From positions 1-64,000 of the forward strand of contig CALXXN010000001.1 in the NCBI GenBank assembly GCA_944392695.1: a DNA stretch of 64,000 nucleotides. Reading direction: 5' to 3'. Positions 1,889 through 22,700 of this stretch are shown in pieces (positions within the stretch are counted from its first letter, which is position 1; every line of letters starts with the position of its first letter). The translations under genes and the position numbers were made by a program. The notes below the pieces were generated by a model. That model saw only the letters and a list, made by a program, of their open reading frames with translations, searched no databases and had not been told where the DNA came from. The DNA is from an uncultured Spirochaetales bacterium. GTDB lineage: Bacteria; Spirochaetota; Spirochaetia; Sphaerochaetales; Sphaerochaetaceae.

Positions 1889-3094
1889 TCAGACCATTGT
1901 CGACATCTGGACGAAGACAGGGACGACGCTCATCAGGACGCCGGCTGCGACTGCGGAACCGATGACACCAGAGACGTTCGGGCCCATGGCATGCATGAGC
2001 AGGAAGTTCTGAGGATCGGCTTCCTGCCCGACCTTGCTGGAGACACGTGCCGCCATCGGGACCGCCGATACACCAGCAGATCCAATGAGGGGATTGACTG
2101 GATGCTTGGGGTCGAGCTTGTTCATCAGCTTGCCCAGGAGGACGCCACCTGCTGTACCGATGCCGAAGGCGACCATGCCGAGGAGCAGGATGCCCAGGGT
2201 CTCGAGGTTGAGGAACCTTTCAGCAGCCATCTTCGAACCGACTGAGAGTCCGAGGAAGATGGTGACTGTGTTCATCAGTGCGTTCTGCATCGTGTCGCTG
2301 AGACGGTCGATGCAGCCACATTCCTTTGCAAGGTTGCCGAACATCAGGGCACCAATCAGGGAACAGGCTGAAGGCAGGAAGATCGCGCACAGTGTGATGA
2401 CTGAGATTGGGAAGATGATCTTCTCAAGCTTTGAGACCGGGCGCATCTGCTGCATGCGGATCATGCGCTCCTTCTTCGTGGTGAGGGCCCTCATGATAGG
2501 TGGCTGGATGATTGGGACCAGTGCCATGTAGGAGTATGCCGCAACGGCAATCGATCCCAGGTAATCCGGGGCCAGATAGCGTGTGACATAGATGGCAGTA
2601 GGTCCATCAGCACCACCAATGATGCCAATCGAGGCAGCGACATTGAGGTCGAAGTTGATTCCAGGGATGAAGGACAGCAGGAGTGCGCCGATCAGGGCGG
2701 TGAAGATACCCAGCTGGGCGGCAGCGCCCAGGAGGAGTGTCTTCGGGTTGGCGATGAGCGGACCGAAGTCCGTCATCGCGCCGACACCCATGAAGATCAG
2801 CACAGGGAAGAGCCCACTCTCGATACCCGCGTTGTACAACACCTGGATGAATCCAATCTGGCCACTTGTCGGGTCAGGATCTCCAGCGATGTATGCGAAG
2901 GGGATGTTCGAAAGGATGCATCCCATTGCGATTGGAATCAGGAGGAGGGGCTCGAAGCCCTTCTTGATTGCCAGGTAGAAGAGCACGAAGCCGACGAGGA
3001 TCATCAGCAGGTTGCCCCATCCCCCATTTATGAAGCCATAGATACCGGTGCTCTGGGCAAGGAGCCCAAGTCCGGTCTTGATTCCTTCAAACAT
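1889..3094 (-). CDS. oadB: Na+-translocating oxaloacetate decarboxylase, beta subunit
   Basis: This is the membrane subunit that decarboxylates carboxybiotin and pumps Na+ out of the cell, completing the reaction started by OadA. The 401-residue protein is hydrophobic throughout, with about nine membrane segments. It carries the family signature [10 protein letters not shown] at residues 160-169, whose aspartate is the conserved ion and proton site, and a second conserved segment [14 protein letters not shown] near residue 340. Length and composition match OadB/MmdB/GcdB proteins; these share the same fold, so the substrate is assigned from the neighbouring alpha chain. It is last in the order oadG-oadA-oadB, 12 bases after oadA, with a good AAGGAGAG ribosome site. 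A terminator follows. Confidence 0.93.
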
Positions 3095-3106: not shown

Positions 3107-5596
3107 TTATGCGATGGTGAGGATGGGGCTATCAGCCTGGAGCTGGTCACCCTGGCTCACATGGATCTGGGAGATGACGCCATCGCAGGGGGCGTAGATG
3201 GGGTTCTCCATCTTCATGGCCTCCATGACGACGATCTCATCATTCAGCTTGACCCTGTCACCGACCTTGACATTCAGGCGGAGCACCAGGCCCGGCATCG
3301 GGGCGTTGACAGCTGTACCACCAGCCTGGGCAGGAGCGGCCTGGGGTGCAGGAGCAGCCTGGACAGGGGCAGCCTGGACAGGGGCAGGGGTGGGCTGGGC
3401 AGCGGCAGGAGCCGGCTGGGGAGCCACAGGAGCGGCCTGTGTTGTTCCACCGATTGTGAGGATCAGCTCATCGGCCTGGCACTGCTGGCCCTGGCTGACA
3501 GCGATTGATGTGACCTGGCCATCGCAAGGAGCGTAGATGGGGTTCTCCATCTTCATGGCCTCCATGACGACGATCTCATCATTCTGCTTGACAGTGTCAC
3601 CGACCTTGACGTTGAGGCGGAGGATCAGGCCCGGCATCGGTGCCTTGACCTCAGTGCTGCCTGTGACGACAGGCTGGGCCACGGGGGCAGCCTGGACGGG
3701 AGCGGCCTGTGGGGCAGGGGCGGCCTGGACAGGAGCAGGAGCGACGACCTGGGCTGTTCCACCAATTGTGAGGATCAGCTCATCTGCCTGGCACTGCTGG
3801 CCCTGGTTGACAGTGATTGATGTGACCTGGCCATCGCAAGGAGCGTAGATGGGGTTCTCCATCTTCATGGCCTCCATGACGACGATCTCATCATTCTGCT
3901 TGACAGTGTCACCGACCTTGACGTTGAGGCGGAGGATCAGGCCCGGCATCGGTGCCTTGACCTCAGTGCTGCCTGTGACGACGGTCTGGGCCACGGGGGC
4001 AGCCTGGACGGCAGGAGCAGCCTGGGCAGCGGCCTGGATGCCATCAGCAATCGAGAGCGGGTAGTTGACACCATTGACAGTGGCGGTATTGTCGGAGAGC
4101 TTGACTCCATAGGCAGTGCCGTTGACTGTGACAGTGTATTCGCCAGAGGTGTTCTTCTTGGCTTCTTCCTTCTTAGGAGCGCTCTTGTCGACCTTGCGCA
4201 CACCATTGACCTTGGCCTTGCCGGTCAGATAGAGGATGCCCTTCTCCTTGCAGCTTGCTGCGATGAAGATGTTCTCCTCTGTCTTCTCAAGACCTGCCTC
4301 TTCAAGCATCTTCTCGGCTGCGGCGCGGCCCTTCTTGGGATCCTTGTCGTTCAGGTCGACGACCTTCTCCGTGGTCGGCTCGAGCTTCAGCTGCTCGCTG
4401 GCTGCCTTGACGACTTCCGGATCGGGCTCGACAGGAGTCTTGCCGAAGTAGCCGAGGACCATCTTGCCGTAACCTTCAGCGAACTTCTTCCAAGGTCCGA
4501 ACATGACGTTGTTGAAGGCCTGCTGGAAGTAGAACTGGCTGACAGGTGTGACCGAGGTGCCGAAACCACCCTTCTTGACGACTTCGCCCATGGCCTCGAC
4601 GATCTGTGGATACTTGTCCATCAGGCCGTTGTCGCGGAGCATCTGGGTGTTGGCTGTGAGGGCGCCACCGGGAAGTGGGAAGAACGGGATCTCAGGGTTG
4701 ACTGCTGTGGCTTCTGGTGGCAGGAAGTAGTCCTTCATGCAATCCTGGAAGACACGCTCAGCTTCCTGGACCTTGGCGACATCGATGTCTAGGTCATAGT
4801 CGGTCCCCCTGAGTGCATGCCACATGGTGAGGATGTCAGGCTGGCAGGTGCCGCCGGAGCAGGGGACCATTGAGAGGTCGACCTGGGTCGCACCAGCCTC
4901 GATGGCTGACATGTACTGCTGGATTGAGACACCAGCTGTCTCATGTGAATGGAATACGATGCTGACATTTGGTCCGAGGATCTTGCGTGCCCTCTTGATT
5001 GTCTCGTAGACGTTGTGAGGGGTGGAAGTACCGGATGCATCCTTGAAGCAGAGGCTGTCGAAGGGGATTCCGGCATCCAGGATCTGGCGCAGGATCTTCT
5101 CATAGAAGTCCGGGTTGTGGGCGGCTGCCTTATAGCTGTCAGGCAGGCTCATCATCGTGATCGTGACCTCGTGCTTGAGCCCTGCGTCATGGATGGCGCG
5201 GCCACTGTCGATCAGGTTGTTGACGTCGTTGAGGGCGTCGAAGTTCCTGATTGTCGTCATGCCGTGTTTCTTGAACATCTGGGCATGGAGCTTGATGATG
5301 TCGCGTGGCTGGGAGTCAAGTCCGACGACGTTGACACCACGGGAAAGGGTCTGGAGGTTGGCATCGGGTCCTGCGACACGGCGGAACTCGTCCATCATGT
5401 CGAAGGCATCTTCATTTGTATAGAAGTAGAGGGACTGGAAGCGGGCACCGCCACCAGCTTCGAAGTGCTTGATGCCAGCTTCCCTGGCAGCCTCGACGGC
5501 GGGCATGAAGTCCTTTGTGAAGACACGGGCGCCATAGACGGACTGGAAGCCGTCACGGAAGGCCGTGCACATGAAGTTGATTTTTTTCTTTGCCAT
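3107..5596 (-). CDS. oadA: Oxaloacetate decarboxylase alpha chain with three biotin domains
   Basis: The cytoplasmic carboxyltransferase moves CO2 from oxaloacetate to biotin. The start is ATG at 5596 because AAGGA lies 9 bases before it; an in-frame TTG at 5605 touches that site. The product has 829 residues against about 600 in the family. Residues 1-460 are the HMGL-like carboxyltransferase and PYC/OADA domains, with RDGFQS, CFKDASG and HSHETAG in the places of the usual RDAHQS, lysine and metal-histidine motifs, so it is a divergent member. A linker follows, then three biotinyl domains, each with VMEAMKMEN. The biotin lysines are at about 578, 682 and 795 (codons 3863-3865, 3551-3553, 3212-3214). 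Ala/Pro/Gln-rich linkers separate them. Pyruvate or another 2-oxoacid as partner is possible. Confidence 0.92.
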   Translation of the reverse strand: MAKKKINFMCTAFRDGFQSVYGARVFTKDFMPAVEAAREAGIKHFEAGGGARFQSLYFYTNEDAFDMMDEFRRVAGPDANLQTLSRGVNVVGLDSQPRDIIKLHAQMFKKHGMTTIRNFDALNDVNNLIDSGRAIHDAGLKHEVTITMMSLPDSYKAAAHNPDFYEKILRQILDAGIPFDSLCFKDASGTSTPHNVYETIKRARKILGPNVSIVFHSHETAGVSIQQYMSAIEAGATQVDLSMVPCSGGTCQPDILTMWHALRGTDYDLDIDVAKVQEAERVFQDCMKDYFLPPEATAVNPEIPFFPLPGGALTANTQMLRDNGLMDKYPQIVEAMGEVVKKGGFGTSVTPVSQFYFQQAFNNVMFGPWKKFAEGYGKMVLGYFGKTPVEPDPEVVKAASEQLKLEPTTEKVVDLNDKDPKKGRAAAEKMLEEAGLEKTEENIFIAASCKEKGILYLTGKAKVNGVRKVDKSAPKKEEAKKNTSGEYTVTVNGTAYGVKLSDNTATVNGVNYPLSIADGIQAAAQAAPAVQAAPVAQTVVTGSTEVKAPMPGLILRLNVKVGDTVKQNDEIVVMEAMKMENPIYAPCDGQVTSITVNQGQQCQADELILTIGGTAQVVAPAPVQAAPAPQAAPVQAAPVAQPVVTGSTEVKAPMPGLILRLNVKVGDTVKQNDEIVVMEAMKMENPIYAPCDGQVTSIAVSQGQQCQADELILTIGGTTQAAPVAPQPAPAAAQPTPAPVQAAPVQAAPAPQAAPAQAGGTAVNAPMPGLVLRLNVKVGDRVKLNDEIVVMEAMKMENPIYAPCDGVISQIHVSQGDQLQADSPILTIA
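3447..4010 (-). repeat. Near-identical direct repeat inside oadA (biotin domain duplication)
   Basis: Two copies of about 252 bp, 3447-3698 and 3759-4010, are offset by exactly 312 bp (104 codons) and differ at only a few positions. Each covers a complete biotinyl domain. A third, more diverged domain lies at about 3120-3310. The near identity points to a recent duplication or ongoing gene conversion. Confidence 0.9.
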
Positions 5597-5611: not shown

Positions 5612-5914
5612 TCACTCATGAGATCTGGAATATGCCGCGGCGATCGCCACTGCGATTTCCGCGTCCCTGGCTCCCGCATTGGCCGCAGGGGCCTGTGTGA
5701 TGGGCGTCGTACTTGCTGAATCCATCTTCCGTGGCTGGGGAGCCGTCTTCGCCGGCGAGATCCTGCCGCAGATCCTGCTCATGATCTTGGTCACGAAGAT
5801 GAGGACCGCGAGGAAGATGAATACGAAACCCATGCCGAGTACGAGAAGCACCAATCCATCCTGCAACTGGCGGATCAGGACGTCCCGTGGCATGTTTGTT
5901 AAGAGTGTCAACAT
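5612..5914 (-). CDS. oadG: Oxaloacetate decarboxylase gamma subunit
   Basis: OadG is the small membrane anchor that holds the alpha and beta chains together. The 100-residue protein has one N-terminal membrane helix (about residues 19-43, LVLLVLGMGFVFIFLAVLIF). A basic, Pro/Ala-rich linker follows, and it ends with the family-typical DAEIAVAIAAAYSRS. It is first in the oadGAB operon, 15 bases before the oadA start, with an AGGAGA ribosome site 9 bases before its ATG. Sequence conservation is always low in this family. The call rests on length, topology, C-terminal motif and position. Confidence 0.85.
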   Translation of the reverse strand: MLTLLTNMPRDVLIRQLQDGLVLLVLGMGFVFIFLAVLIFVTKIMSRICGRISPAKTAPQPRKMDSASTTPITQAPAANAGARDAEIAVAIAAAYSRSHE

Positions 5915-8287: not shown

Positions 8288-9088
8288 TCAATCCAGGAAA
8301 CGTTCGTTTATCTTGACGCCGAATGCGTCAGCGAGGATCCTCAACTGTTCATCGCTGATCGTCCTCACGATGCCAGCACCCTTTGCCTTCAGGTAGATTT
8401 CCGCCGCCTTCTCAATCGTGTGGACCAGGCCGAATGTCTCATCGAAATCGGCTCCCGTGCCGAAGATGCCATGGAAGGCCCAGACAACGGCAGGGTAGTC
8501 CTTGACCAGCTTCGAGGTCTCGATGGCGATGTCTGTGCCGCCAGGAATCATCCAGTCGAGGATTCCAACACCTTCAGGGAATACGACTGCGCATTCGGTC
8601 TCGCTCTGCCAGAGTATGCGGGAGAGCGTCCTCGCATCAGGCTCGATCGTATAGCTCAGTGCGGTGATGTTCGCTGGGTGGGCATGGTAGACGACGCGGC
8701 AGCGCCCCCCTGTGGCCTCCATCCTGCTGACATGGTTCATCAGGTGGCTTGGCAGCTCACTGGTGGGCTTCGCCCCATCCTCAAGCCCCCAGAGGATCTT
8801 ATAACCCGCACCATCGGCGTCGATCTTGATGATGCCTATGTTCTTCTCCGGGGCGAGTGGGACATTGCGCATGTAACGTCCGCTTCCCGTCGTGATGAAG
8901 TACTCACCTGCGAGGGCGGGTAGTGTGACAGGGAGGTCCATGTGCCTGTGCTGTGTGAAGAGAGGGGCGCAGTCTGCGACCTCGTCCTCCTTCATACGGT
9001 AGGTCAGGTTGCCTCCATTGCGCTCATGCCAGCCCTGGAGGAAGCCGTCGTAACACATCCTGATGTAATCTTCCAATACCTTCTGCAT
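8288..9088 (-). CDS. rhaD: L-rhamnulose-1-phosphate aldolase
   Basis: This class II aldolase splits L-rhamnulose 1-phosphate into dihydroxyacetone phosphate and L-lactaldehyde. The 266 residues match the usual length (about 274). Expected active-site elements are present: the glutamate in PTSELPSH (about residue 111), zinc histidines in VYHAHP (about 135 and 137) and the later histidine in WAFHGIF. An N-terminal GGNLTYR motif matches the phosphate-binding region. The start is ATG 9088 because GAGGA lies 7 bases upstream; a TTG at 9094 would overlap the rhaA stop. It is last in rhaBAD, two bases after the rhaA stop codon. Confidence 0.95.
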   Translation of the reverse strand: MQKVLEDYIRMCYDGFLQGWHERNGGNLTYRMKEDEVADCAPLFTQHRHMDLPVTLPALAGEYFITTGSGRYMRNVPLAPEKNIGIIKIDADGAGYKILWGLEDGAKPTSELPSHLMNHVSRMEATGGRCRVVYHAHPANITALSYTIEPDARTLSRILWQSETECAVVFPEGVGILDWMIPGGTDIAIETSKLVKDYPAVVWAFHGIFGTGADFDETFGLVHTIEKAAEIYLKAKGAGIVRTISDEQLRILADAFGVKINERFLD

Positions 9089-9090
9089 TT

Positions 9091-10326
9091 TCAATTCCTC
9101 TTGAGGAGGACCTCCTTCTCATAACGCATGACATCCTCGAACCAGCTGAAGTCATCTGACATGCCTTCGCGACGCAGATACTCGTTCCATACCTCCTGCC
9201 AAGGCAGTTCCTTCATCTCTTCCGAGTAGGCGAAGAGGCGGGTGTAGTCCTCGGCCTCCTGCTGGGCCTTCATGGACTTGTTGTCCTCCAGCAGGGCCAT
9301 GAGCAAGGCCTTCTGCATGTTGCGCGTCCCGACGACCCAGGCGACTATGCGGTTGATCGAGGCATCGAAGAAGTCCAGTCCGATCAGGACACGGTCGAGG
9401 GCGTCGTTGCGGACGATTTCCTTGGCGATCTCCTTCAGTTCGTCATCCAGGCGTACGACATGGTCGCTGTCCCAGCGTACGGCGCGTGTGACGTGCAGTG
9501 GGATCTTGTCGAAGAAACAGAGCAGTGCGGAGAGCTTCTCGCTGATCACTTCTGTTGGGTGGTAGTGGCCGCTGTCCAGGAGCTGGTGCACTCCCTCATG
9601 GCTCTTGGCATAGGCGAGGTAGAACTCGTTGGAGCCGACTGTGAATGACTCGAGTCCTATGCCGAATACCTTGCTCTCCACGCTGTCGATGACTCCATCG
9701 AGTTTTTCTGCATAAACCTGGTCGAGGGAGTCACGGAGGCGGAGGCGTGGTGAGAGGCGGTCTGCTGGTGTGTCCTTGAAGCCATCGGGGATCCAGAGGT
9801 TGCATACACTATAGCCATCGAGCTCCTTTGCGAATGTGGCTGCGACGCGGCGGCTTGCGATGCAGTGGCGGATCCAGAAGTCACGCACCTCCTTGTGGGG
9901 AGAGGAGAGTGTCAGGTTGTTGACGACCATGGGATGTGAGAAGCAGGTCGGGTTGAAGTCGAGCCCGAGCTTGTTCTTCTTCGCGAAGTCGATCCACGCC
10001 TGGTAGTCCTCCGGGCGGATTCCATCGCGGTCTGTCTGGCGGTCTGTGACCAGGTAGCTTGCATGGAGGTTCAGCCGCTTGGCGCCAGGGATCATCGAAG
10101 AGGCGAACTCGAAGTCGGCCATCAGCTCCTCCGGGGTCCTGGCACGTCCAGGATGGTCTCCAGTCGTCTGGATACCACCTGAGAGGGCGCTGGCACCTTT
10201 CTCGAAGCCGATCACGTCATCCCCCTGCCAGCAGTTGATGCTGACCGGGGTTTTCCGCAGTGTCTCAATCGCCGCTTCTGTGTCTATGCCGTAGGCGGCG
10301 TATCGTTCCTTTGCATCCTTGTACAT
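9091..10326 (-). CDS. rhaA: L-rhamnose isomerase
   Basis: RhaA converts L-rhamnose to L-rhamnulose using divalent metal. The 411 residues compare with 419 in E. coli. Motifs include SINCWQGDDVIGFE near the N-terminus, LDFNPTCFSHPM, the HYHPTEVISEK segment and VRWDSDHVV, all characteristic of RhaA rather than xylose isomerase. The start is ATG 10326, preceded at 5 bases by a full AGGAGG. The frame runs further upstream, but only into the end of rhaB. It is the middle gene of rhaBAD, with 10 bases to rhaB and 2 bases to rhaD. Confidence 0.95.
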   Translation of the reverse strand: MYKDAKERYAAYGIDTEAAIETLRKTPVSINCWQGDDVIGFEKGASALSGGIQTTGDHPGRARTPEELMADFEFASSMIPGAKRLNLHASYLVTDRQTDRDGIRPEDYQAWIDFAKKNKLGLDFNPTCFSHPMVVNNLTLSSPHKEVRDFWIRHCIASRRVAATFAKELDGYSVCNLWIPDGFKDTPADRLSPRLRLRDSLDQVYAEKLDGVIDSVESKVFGIGLESFTVGSNEFYLAYAKSHEGVHQLLDSGHYHPTEVISEKLSALLCFFDKIPLHVTRAVRWDSDHVVRLDDELKEIAKEIVRNDALDRVLIGLDFFDASINRIVAWVVGTRNMQKALLMALLEDNKSMKAQQEAEDYTRLFAYSEEMKELPWQEVWNEYLRREGMSDDFSWFEDVMRYEKEVLLKRN

Positions 10327-10336
10327 GCCATTCCTC

Positions 10337-11689
10337 CTATATGCACTCATGAATCTCGAAGGATGAGACCAGTATGTCTTTGATATCCGAGCGTCCGAAT
10401 TCCTTTGATGCCAGCATCGCTGAGAGCAGGTTGCCAATCGCGCTGCCTTCGTCTGGGCCGGCCGTGACACGGAGCCCCGTGGCCTTGGCCGTCAGCTGGT
10501 TGAGGTAGTCATCCTTGGAACCTCCACCGACAATGGCCAGGTGGTCAAAGCGCCGACCCGTGATGGCTTCCATGCCACAGATCGCATCCATGTAGGCTTC
10601 CGCCAGGCTCTCGTAGACGACACGGGCTGTCTCTCCAATGCCAGAAGGCCTCCTGAGGCCTTGCTCCTCTAACGCGTCTGCAATCGCCATCGTCATCGAG
10701 GCTGGGGCGAGGAAGCGGTCATCAAGCGCATCGACAAGGCCGATGAACTCACTTGAACGGGCTTCACTGACGATGTCATCGAAGCTGATGTCCCCTCCTG
10801 CTTCCTTCCTGATGTTCTGGAGCATCCATGTGCCCATGATGTTCTTCAGGAAGCGCACCTGACCATCATCAGCCCCTTCGTTCGTGAAGTTCGCCTTTGC
10901 GGCTTCCCCGTTTGTGATTGCCTCTGGCAGGAGGCAGCCTAACAATGACCAAGTGCCTGATGAGAGGTAGGCGGAAGCAGGGCCCAGGGGGCTTGCGAGC
11001 ACGGCTGCTGCCGTATCATGACTTGGGGCCAGGATGAGGGTCGTATCGTAGCCGACTTCGTCACGGACCTCCCCACGGAGCCTTCCAAGCCTGGTGCCTG
11101 GCATTGAGAGTGTTTTGAATATCCTGCCGGGCAGGCCAAGTGCATCAATCAGCCCATGGTCCCATTCCTGACGACCCGCCTCCAGGAGGTTGGTCGTGCT
11201 CGCGTTCGTATACTCCTGCGCCATCTCCCCTGTGAGCTTCCAGGCGAGGTAGTCCGGTATCATCAGCATGTCATGGGCCTTGTCCAGGACAGCCCTGTCT
11301 TCGCTCAGGAGCTGGTAGATGGTGTTGAACCTCTGTTTCTGCGTCCCTGTGCGTTTGTAGAGCTCCTCCTGTGCGATGGGGCAGGCCACGTTGTCAGTGC
11401 GCTTGTCGCGGTAGGAGGTGGCAGGTGTGACCTCCCTGTGGTCCTTGTCCAGAAGGACATAGTCCACACCCCAGGTGTCGATTGAGACGCTGTCGACAGG
11501 GCCGGCCTTCCTCATGCCTGCCAGTACTTCCTTGTAGAGCGCCTCGATGTCCCAGCACAACCTTCCAGCTTTTTCGATGGGCTTGTTTGGGAAGCGATGT
11601 ACGCATTCAGTGTGGATTTCCCCACCATCGAAACACCCAAGCAGGATCTTGCCTGATGATGCCCCGATGTCTATGGCCAGATGTCTCAT
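10337..11689 (-). CDS. rhaB: L-rhamnulokinase
   Basis: RhaB phosphorylates L-rhamnulose at C1 with ATP. It is a FGGY-type carbohydrate kinase with the phosphate loop AIDIGASSGK at the N-terminus. The substrate segment DTWGVDYVLLD is followed by SYRDKRTD and FNTIYQL. The later ATP-site segments are APSHDTAAAV, SSGTWSLLG and IVGGGSKDDYLNQLTA. The start is uncertain. ATG 11689 gives the family N-terminus and 450 residues. A GTG at 11731 would add 14 residues but sits only two bases after AAGGAG. It is first in rhaBAD and divergent from the AraC regulator, whose product probably controls both. Confidence 0.93.
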   Translation of the reverse strand: MRHLAIDIGASSGKILLGCFDGGEIHTECVHRFPNKPIEKAGRLCWDIEALYKEVLAGMRKAGPVDSVSIDTWGVDYVLLDKDHREVTPATSYRDKRTDNVACPIAQEELYKRTGTQKQRFNTIYQLLSEDRAVLDKAHDMLMIPDYLAWKLTGEMAQEYTNASTTNLLEAGRQEWDHGLIDALGLPGRIFKTLSMPGTRLGRLRGEVRDEVGYDTTLILAPSHDTAAAVLASPLGPASAYLSSGTWSLLGCLLPEAITNGEAAKANFTNEGADDGQVRFLKNIMGTWMLQNIRKEAGGDISFDDIVSEARSSEFIGLVDALDDRFLAPASMTMAIADALEEQGLRRPSGIGETARVVYESLAEAYMDAICGMEAITGRRFDHLAIVGGGSKDDYLNQLTAKATGLRVTAGPDEGSAIGNLLSAMLASKEFGRSDIKDILVSSFEIHECI

Positions 11690-11811
11690 GCCAACAGCAT
11701 CCATCCCTATCGCTGCATGCGCAATAGACACTTCTCCTTATTTGTTGATGGAAATCGCCCGGATATTTGTTTAAAAGCGTGGAATAAGGTCAAGTCTTGA
11801 TGTTTTTTTAC

Positions 11812-11840
11812 TTGCGTCCTGCCTCGGGCTGTGTGAGAAT
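11812..11840 (+). promoter_or_regulatory. Candidate leaderless promoter of the rhamnose regulator
   Basis: TTGCGT (11812-11817), 17 bases, GAGAAT (11835-11840), then AAGCAC and the ATG at 11847. The 6-base gap predicts that transcription starts on the ATG itself. No ribosome site precedes the gene. Confidence 0.45.
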
Positions 11841-11846
11841 AAGCAC

Positions 11847-12782
11847 ATGGGATACTTGATGGACCGCTTGAGGCCCCTCACCGATGAGGAGCTTGCTTAC
11901 AAGGAGGCCCGCTCGAAGGGCCTGACTGGTGTGGACCAGGTCATACTCCCCAGCGAAGTGGAGGAGCGTGCACGTTGTGATGAGAAAGTCGTGCTGCGGT
12001 CCTCCTACTATGATGACCGGCCTGGAGGGGTGAAGATGGTGAAACACCCTGTCTACATGCCCCGCTATCTGCACAGCCACCGCTTTGTCGAACTGACCTG
12101 GATCGCGTCAGGTTCTGTCGAGGAGGAGCTGGAGGGCAAGGACATCACGGCTGTTGAAGGCGATGTCGTTATGATCATGCCAGGCTACTACCACAGCATA
12201 TGGACTGATAGTGAGGACACGTTGGCCCTGAATTTCCTGGCCGATCCTGCTTTCTTCGCTTCCCTTGACGAGCGCTTCTCCTTGGACCTCTCCGCCTGCT
12301 CCCATGCAGTCTTCGGCCCTGTCGACCTTGAAGCCCCTGTCGAGTACTTCCTGGCAGAGAGGGAGAAGTGTGATGAAGCCTCACCTTTTGCGATGGAAGT
12401 CGCTTTCGAGCGCATGCTGCTGGCATTGAAACGTTCCACATTGAAGGAGAAGGCCTTGCCAGGTGAGCGCAAGGAGGTCTTCAGGATCCTCTCCTACCTC
12501 GAGGAGCATTCTGCAGATGTGACTCTCACGAGTTTCGCCGAGTATTTCCGCGTCAGCGAGCAGTACGCCTCACGCCTGATCCGGGAGAAGACTGGTTCAT
12601 CCTTCTCCCAGATTGTCAAACGGTTGAGGATGGAGCAGGCGGCCAAGCTGCTGCGCACAGGCCGCCTCTCGGCCAAGGAGGTCGGAGGCAAGGTCGGTTA
12701 CTCGTCCCCAGAGCACTTCAGCCGTACCTTCAAGGCCTGGTACGGCATAGGCCCTGACGAGTGGAGGAAGCGTAACAGCTAG
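11847..12782 (+). CDS. AraC family regulator of the rhamnose genes
   Basis: The 311-residue protein has an N-terminal cupin-like sensing domain (HSHRFVELTWIASGSVEEEL and GDVVMIMPGYYHSIW, residues about 75-125). A C-terminal AraC DNA-binding domain carries two helix-turn-helix units, ending with VGGKVGYSSPEHFSRTFKAWYGIGPDEWRK. It is divergent from rhaBAD and convergent with rhaM. This is the arrangement of a local activator such as RhaS/RhaR, although the sequence is not close enough to name it so. The ligand is presumably L-rhamnose (inference from location). Its stop codon shares the bases CTAG with the rhaM stop on the other strand. Confidence 0.88.
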   Translation: MGYLMDRLRPLTDEELAYKEARSKGLTGVDQVILPSEVEERARCDEKVVLRSSYYDDRPGGVKMVKHPVYMPRYLHSHRFVELTWIASGSVEEELEGKDITAVEGDVVMIMPGYYHSIWTDSEDTLALNFLADPAFFASLDERFSLDLSACSHAVFGPVDLEAPVEYFLAEREKCDEASPFAMEVAFERMLLALKRSTLKEKALPGERKEVFRILSYLEEHSADVTLTSFAEYFRVSEQYASRLIREKTGSSFSQIVKRLRMEQAAKLLRTGRLSAKEVGGKVGYSSPEHFSRTFKAWYGIGPDEWRKRNS

Positions 12783-22606: not shown

Positions 22607-22700
22607 CCAAGAACCCGCAAGTTACGAATTACCCAATTCCCCAAGAACCCGCAGGTTTGAAATTGCCAAATCACCCAAGAGTACGCAGGTTTGAAAACGA
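22607..22700. repeat. Three tandem 34-bp repeats upstream of the DUF4143 ATPase
   Basis: Units start at 22607, 22641 and 22675, each beginning CCAAGA, with the core CGCARGTTTGAAA-like sequence in the last two. Period is exactly 34 bp and the third copy is cut short near 22700. On the minus strand the first unit supplies TTGCGG, which with TAATTT 17 bp downstream could be the ATPase promoter. There are no spacers, so this is not a CRISPR array. Confidence 0.8.

Follow-up and report, generated by a model that had tools for sequence, protein, structure and literature searches.

The alpha chain of an oxaloacetate decarboxylase Na+ pump encoded by a gut spirochaete carries three tandem biotinyl domains, and it is probable that a single swinging biotin domain became three here by duplication of the inner domain, giving the pump redundant parallel carriers. 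The gene, oadA, lies in the window, by which we mean the whole 64,000-nucleotide stretch of DNA that was analyzed, with oadG directly upstream and oadB directly downstream, all on one strand. The features used in the analysis are as follows.

5612..5914, minus strand: oadG, gamma subunit, 100 aa (PF04277, E 9e-15; TIGR01195 above cut-off)
3107..5596, minus strand: oadA, oxaloacetate decarboxylase alpha chain, 829 aa (translation from the ATG at 5596; Pfam)
4157..5596, minus strand: carboxyltransferase (CT) and association region of OadA, about residues 1-480 (PYC_OADA 307-496, HMGL-like, fold match)
3977..4048, minus strand: hinge rich in Ala ahead of domain 1, residues 517-540 approximately (pLDDT <50)
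3764..3964, minus strand: biotinyl domain 1 (inner), biotin Lys578, codon 3863-3865 (PF00364, 72.2 bits; pLDDT mostly >=80)
3668..3763, minus strand: linker of about 32 residues, Ala/Pro-rich, joining domains 1 and 2 (pLDDT <50 over most of it)
3452..3652, minus strand: biotinyl domain 2, Lys682, codon 3551-3553 (PF00364, 71.9 bits; near-identical to domain 1)
3332..3451, minus strand: linker of about 40 residues, Ala/Pro-rich, joining domains 2 and 3 (pLDDT <50; DNA with 15- and 21-bp tandem repeats)
3113..3313, minus strand: biotinyl domain 3 (C-terminal), Lys795, codon 3212-3214 (PF00364, 70.0 bits; 80-81% nt identity to domains 1 and 2)
3761..4012, minus strand: repeat unit copy A, 252 bp (245/252 sites equal at a 312-bp offset; Tandem Repeats Finder)
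3449..3700, minus strand: repeat unit copy B, 252 bp (312-bp offset comparison; Tandem Repeats Finder)
1889..3094, minus strand: oadB, 401 aa, the beta subunit in the membrane, which decarboxylates carboxybiotin and pumps Na+ (PF03977, E 3e-158)

Three biotinyl domains in a pump operon

A Pfam search of the protein placed PF00364 in three separate stretches (total E 8.1e-57), and motif inspection found VMEAMKMEN in each of them, with the lysines at 578, 682, and 795. The sequence-only reading had described three full copies with this motif, joined by Ala/Pro-rich linkers, two of them almost identical over 252 bp with a 312-bp period, and the description holds throughout: the linkers are evident in the sequence, and Tandem Repeats Finder reported a period of 312 with 1.8 copies and 96% matches. 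The repeat unit, 104 codons long, covers one biotinyl domain and a portion of linker. Copies 1 and 2 are identical at 203/207 nt and 67/69 residues; copy 3 matches copies 1 and 2 at 165 and 167 of 207 nt and at 53 and 54 of 69 residues, respectively. The two linkers, both rich in Ala and Pro, are unlike each other in sequence. Across the multi-domain proteins that we collected (n = 86), linkers span 20 to 42 residues (mean, 31.7) and consist of 38% Ala and 22% Pro.

AlphaFold2, run on an alignment of 28 sequences, gave a model with a mean pLDDT of 75.3 and a pTM of 0.58, in which the three biotinyl domains have six strands each and a pLDDT of mostly >=80, while residues 517-540, 616-645, and 720-758, between or before the folded domains, fall below 50. 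The protein thus has the makings of a tandem swinging arm: carrier domains with a modification lysine on flexible Ala/Pro linkers. It also gave a sequence match to the E. coli E2p entry 7b9k.

For the catalytic part, PF02436 was above its cut-off and PF00682 (HMGL-like) just below. Asp15, Lys185, His216, and His218, which we take to be the metal-site residues of the carboxyltransferase domain, are invariant in the alignment of 28 sequences, and Asp15, His216, and His218 align to the CT domain of Vibrio cholerae OadA (2nx9). The best Foldseek matches of the model were pyruvate carboxylases, the top one a two-subunit pyruvate carboxylase; transcarboxylase 5S (TMt 0.82) and the V. cholerae OAD carboxyltransferase 2nx9 (TMt 0.83) were also recovered. 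In NCBIfam, the protein scored 399.9 bits against a cut-off of 756.5 for the oadA equivalog TIGR01108 and passed the cut-off of PRK09282 (PycB, pyruvate carboxylase subunit B; 452.6 versus 402 bits). We call it a putative divergent OadA subfamily, scoring below the TIGR01108 equivalog group; the call is made because of the operon and the missing biotin carboxylase (see below), not because of the TIGR01108 score. The window OadA has three biotinyl domains; a single one is the number in characterized members and does not define the family.

The assignment to a Na+ pump, also proposed from the sequence alone, is supported by the adjoining oadG and oadB and by a CT domain of the PYC/OadA/5S type. 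Over 81-391, the window OadB aligns to 6iva, the beta chain of Salmonella, and it retains the counterparts of Asp203, Ser382, and Asn412 of that chain (positions counted by eye on the alignment), residues proposed as Na+ ligands in PMC7274780. In 14/14 complete three-domain loci of the family, oadA lies between OadB and OadG, all on one strand, and OadB was found in 30/30 multi-domain loci among the best 80 of 567 genome-contig loci.

The source genome, assembled in 39 contigs and 96.49% complete, gave no match to biotin carboxylase (PF02785), the partner expected of PycB, in a search that returned matches in 13/14 control genomes. It has one biotin ligase, with BioY close beside it. Its other PF00364 match scores 28 bits and has no MKM motif; in our reading of the sequence, this protein would be membrane-fusion-like. 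The lack of a biotin carboxylase, the single ligase, and BioY together point to decarboxylation via OadB rather than ATP-driven carboxylation, and OadA is probably the only biotin protein of this genome, working as a decarboxylase.

Elsewhere in the window, positions 8288-12782 hold what we presume to be a rhamnose utilization cluster (aldolase, isomerase, and kinase) with an AraC-type regulator, and a 34-bp tandem repeat of 2.6 copies occupies 22607-22696. Near the contig start, a frame at 168-1289 made of short imperfect repeats (NHGDVT and NNGTI types) looks like a repeat-rich surface protein.

Domain number across the family and origin of the third domain

We searched 139 genomes of the family Sphaerochaetaceae and found an OadA match in 129. 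We set 20 of them aside because the gene was truncated or split between two frames or contigs or, for G133, because the locus was not retrieved, and kept the remaining 109 complete frames. Biotinyl domains were counted with an HMM built for this analysis at a threshold of 60 bits, which excludes the hits of 15 to 36 bits seen in most proteins at about residues 360-490, within the carboxyltransferase/association region. Among the 109 frames, 33 have one domain, 58 have two, 14 have three, and 4 have none. Three-domain genes make up 4/14 complete frames in the genus of the window (g1) and 10/39 in a second genus (g16), so that 13 genomes besides that of the window (3 in g1 and 10 in g16) have a complete three-domain gene. 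Two or three domains occur in 13/21 genera having complete frames; genus g3 has one-domain genes only (19/19). One g1 member (G006) shares sequence with Bullifex porci, and two g16 members share sequence with Candidatus Ornithospirochaeta records. Three further loci (L031, L034, and L035) come from the same genomes as G098, G076, and G074 and are not extra cases. The zero-domain frame of G115 seems to stem from a frameshift, since the domain is in a neighboring 114-aa frame.

All three genomes of genus g13 (L127/G027, L213/G161, and L216/G162) have an OadA whose end is biotinyl-like or unrecognized, without MKM (24 bits, 33 bits, and no hit). In one of them (G027), a separate 156-aa biotin carrier (L231) lies elsewhere, in our reading beside a gamma-like and a carboxyltransferase-like gene, and the carrier of the g13 OadA may be supplied by another operon.

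The identities between copies indicate where the third domain came from. In all 14 three-domain proteins, copies 1 and 2 are 94 to 98.5% identical in amino acid sequence, and copy 3 is about 76% identical to them. The copies of two-domain proteins average 74% identity (57 pairs), the same distance as that of copy 3; one two-domain protein (G120), whose copies keep AMKM, was left out of these pairwise identities. In comparison with two-domain relatives, both positions 1 and 2 of three-domain proteins match the first domain, and position 3 matches the second. Together, the copy identities and position matches lead to the conclusion that the third domain arose as a copy of the inner one.

Copies 1 and 2 nonetheless differ in all 14 genes, at 3 to 20 of 201 nt, mostly at silent sites. 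Within a protein, their nucleotide identity exceeds every cross-species comparison made in 13/14 cases (G091 is the exception), as would follow either from repeated recent duplication or from homogenization by gene conversion. On a family tree built from the carboxyltransferase part (109 rows, quick IQ-TREE, unrooted), domain number changed at least 16 times over the 105 rows with at least one domain; taken separately, switches between two and three domains number 10 or more among 72 proteins, and switches between one domain and more than one number 6 or more. Because the tree is unrooted and quick, these counts lump gains with losses. Some two-domain genes sit within groups of three-domain ones. 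The commonest state in the family is thus two biotinyl domains, and a third has arisen repeatedly, often recently, by duplication of the inner domain and is not a one-off.

Beyond the family, 61 first relatives and 392 genomes of the phylum were covered, with domains counted in some genes, mostly in long frames. Two domains were found in G038, G051, G057, and G187 and one in G221, G351, G359, and G460, among others. Loci from records naming no spirochaete had one domain at 60 bits in 36/36 cases among the best 80 of 567, which is a biased sample for that reason. Two-domain OadA proteins occur in other families of the class or phylum (L113 in G051, L114 in G057, L117 in G038, L226 in G187, and L067), four of these five with an ESMKM motif; carrier duplication is therefore not confined to one family.

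Drift, selection, and other accounts of the extra domains

A serious rival, to which we assign a real but minor probability, is that the expansion is nearly neutral: linker DNA recombines easily, and copy number drifts between two and three with no kinetic benefit, extra carrier domains being tolerated because one suffices. The minimum of 16 changes over the family tree, 10 of them between two and three, would fit such drift, as would the 15- and 21-bp tandem repeats in the linker DNA and the redundancy with which E2p lipoyl domains are said to be able to act (passages in PMC8421416 and PMC6270654). The frequent flips, and the nesting of two-domain genes among three-domain genes, are compatible with near-neutrality or with repeats collapsed in assembly. 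Selection on the copies argues against drift. The biotinylation motif, [A/S]MKM, is kept in 158/158 domains of complete multi-domain proteins, with no lysine-less copy among them, and the pooled dN/dS between copies 1 and 2 is 0.063 (sum dN 0.20, sum dS 3.24; 14 genes). The window gene by itself (3/201 nt different, dN 0.013, dS 0.023) is uninformative on selection, because the differences are too few and the duplication too recent. Hits of 25 to 60 bits after the CT domain were confined to truncated frames and a single g13 frame; decayed extra copies are therefore not hidden by the 60-bit threshold. The spread of multi-domain proteins over 13 of the 21 genera also speaks against drift, and from these comparisons the repeat looks real and under purifying selection across relatives.

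A division of labor among the domains is unlikely. Under this proposal, the C-terminal domain, which differs from the others by about 24%, would prefer OadB, and the inner copies would prefer CT sites or neighboring alpha chains, with the carboxyl group handed on stepwise. Within genera, there is some positional signal across species: same-position copies agree at 0.775 (1-1) and 0.750 (2-2) versus 0.701 (1-2) in g16 and at 0.814 (1-1) and 0.807 (2-2) versus 0.751 (1-2) in g1. Across genera, however, copies from the same protein agree better (0.718) than same-position copies (0.678 and 0.655), and this weak positional signal points to homogenization, not specialization. Moreover, we know of no case of biotin-to-biotin carboxyl transfer.

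It is very unlikely that the extra domains are a biotin store, a cofactor reserve in a genome with OadA as its sole clear biotin protein. The source genome, with no other strong biotinyl domain and no biotin carboxylase, fits this idea, but g16 refutes it as a general cause: biotin carboxylase is present in 10/10 three-domain g16 genomes, and its absence therefore does not explain the expansion. Many two-domain genomes of g1 lack biotin carboxylase, so that copy number does not track it.

The sequence-only reading had named an assembly artefact, with one or two true copies, as the outcome that would undo it. A repeat miscounted in assembly, with two copies in the true gene, is now barely credible. 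The 39-contig assembly could raise such a doubt, and contigs end inside the repeat region in five other genomes (G002, G009, G073, G080, and G082), which we take as no more than a caution. The artefact is rejected on the strength of the 13 further genomes with complete three-domain genes and the differences between copies in all 14; the linkers are also distinct, and a collapse would reduce, not increase, the copy count. Three-domain genes may, by the same token, be undercounted, some two-domain calls nested among three-domain ones being collapsed repeats. At one contig end (L006, G002), the second domain has MAAMKM in place of MEAMKM, which may be an error made in assembling the repeat. Equally hard to credit is that the gene encodes subunit B of a two-subunit pyruvate carboxylase, as the PRK09282 score, the missed oadA equivalog cut-off, and the top fold match might suggest, against an operon with OadB and OadG and a genome in which the biotin carboxylase search found nothing.

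Proposed parallel carriers and known systems

The usual description of a biotin enzyme has a single swinging arm on each chain, and lipoyl enzymes vary from one to three. We favor redundant parallel carriers because E. coli E2p is the nearest working analogue. In a two-domain ancestor, the inner domain and one linker (312 bp, or 104 codons) would have been duplicated in tandem and in frame. Unequal recombination within the repetitive linker DNA, which codes for Ala and Pro, is the probable cause, and the 15- and 21-bp repeats are a plausible substrate for it. The single biotin ligase of the genome would be expected to biotinylate all three domains. Any one of the three biotins could then receive CO2 from oxaloacetate at the CT domain, and its flexible domain would take the carboxybiotin to an OadB, where decarboxylation would be coupled to Na+ export. 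The three would be redundant in catalysis, and a benefit may come from a higher local carrier concentration or a longer reach from the CT sites to the membrane part.

The parallel with the lipoyl domains of pyruvate dehydrogenase, drawn from the sequence alone, stands at the level of architecture; the greater reach or load proposed with it for three biotins is a conjecture. E. coli E2p has three lipoyl domains on Ala-Pro linkers of 20 to 30 residues, which are said to act redundantly, randomly, and independently, as given in the relevant passages of two papers (PMC8421416 and PMC6270654); like the window OadA, it thus has three near-identical tandem carrier domains on Ala/Pro linkers. Unlike OadA, its carriers are lipoyl domains located N-terminally to the catalytic core of a soluble complex, whereas those of OadA are biotinyl domains in a membrane pump. 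The Klebsiella, Salmonella, and Vibrio OadGAB systems, in the account of PMC7274780 drawn on here, share the CT-association-biotinyl layout, OadB and OadG, and the Na+-site residues of the beta chain; they differ in having a single C-terminal biotinyl domain, and the window OadA is of a divergent subfamily under the NCBIfam oadA cut-off. Glutaconyl-CoA decarboxylase of Clostridium symbiosum, another Na+-pump decarboxylase, has two biotin carriers per complex, GcdC1 and GcdC2, with Ala/Pro linkers, as described in a section of PMC7145394. Its carriers are separate subunits, unlike the tandem domains of the carboxyltransferase chain seen here.

A two-biotin OadA has already been published. The 2010 Geobacter bemidjiensis genome paper (PMC2996986) reports two biotin attachment domains in the OadA Gbem_1454 and no OadB or OadG homologs in the genome; according to its authors, homologs associated with the pump have only a single biotin domain. 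The window OadA, by contrast, has three and lies in a pump operon. Our searches of open-license PMC papers gave no report of a pump-associated OadA with two or three biotins. The earlier statement that known OadA proteins carry one biotinyl domain therefore stands for the characterized members; it fails for the family, where 58/109 carry two and 14 carry three, and for Gbem_1454.

The beta3gamma3 assembly of oxaloacetate decarboxylase can bind up to six alpha chains, as stated in the part of PMC7274780 on its architecture, and three biotins on each would make up to 18 carriers per three beta sites, a figure that is arithmetic and not evidence. A bolder version, which we hold to be distinctly improbable, is a multi-headed pump in which the three biotins of each alpha chain are matched to beta3gamma3; one carboxyltransferase would load three pump units at once, the shuttle would no longer limit turnover, and the number of carriers would become a gear that evolution can shift in a primary Na+ pump.

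How oxaloacetate decarboxylation is coupled to Na+ transport is, according to PMC7274780, poorly understood. The natural pumps with one, two, and three biotins, which include the two-domain form of a named species, Bullifex porci, offer a ready set for comparison, in which one can ask whether a decarboxylase pump is limited by its carrier.
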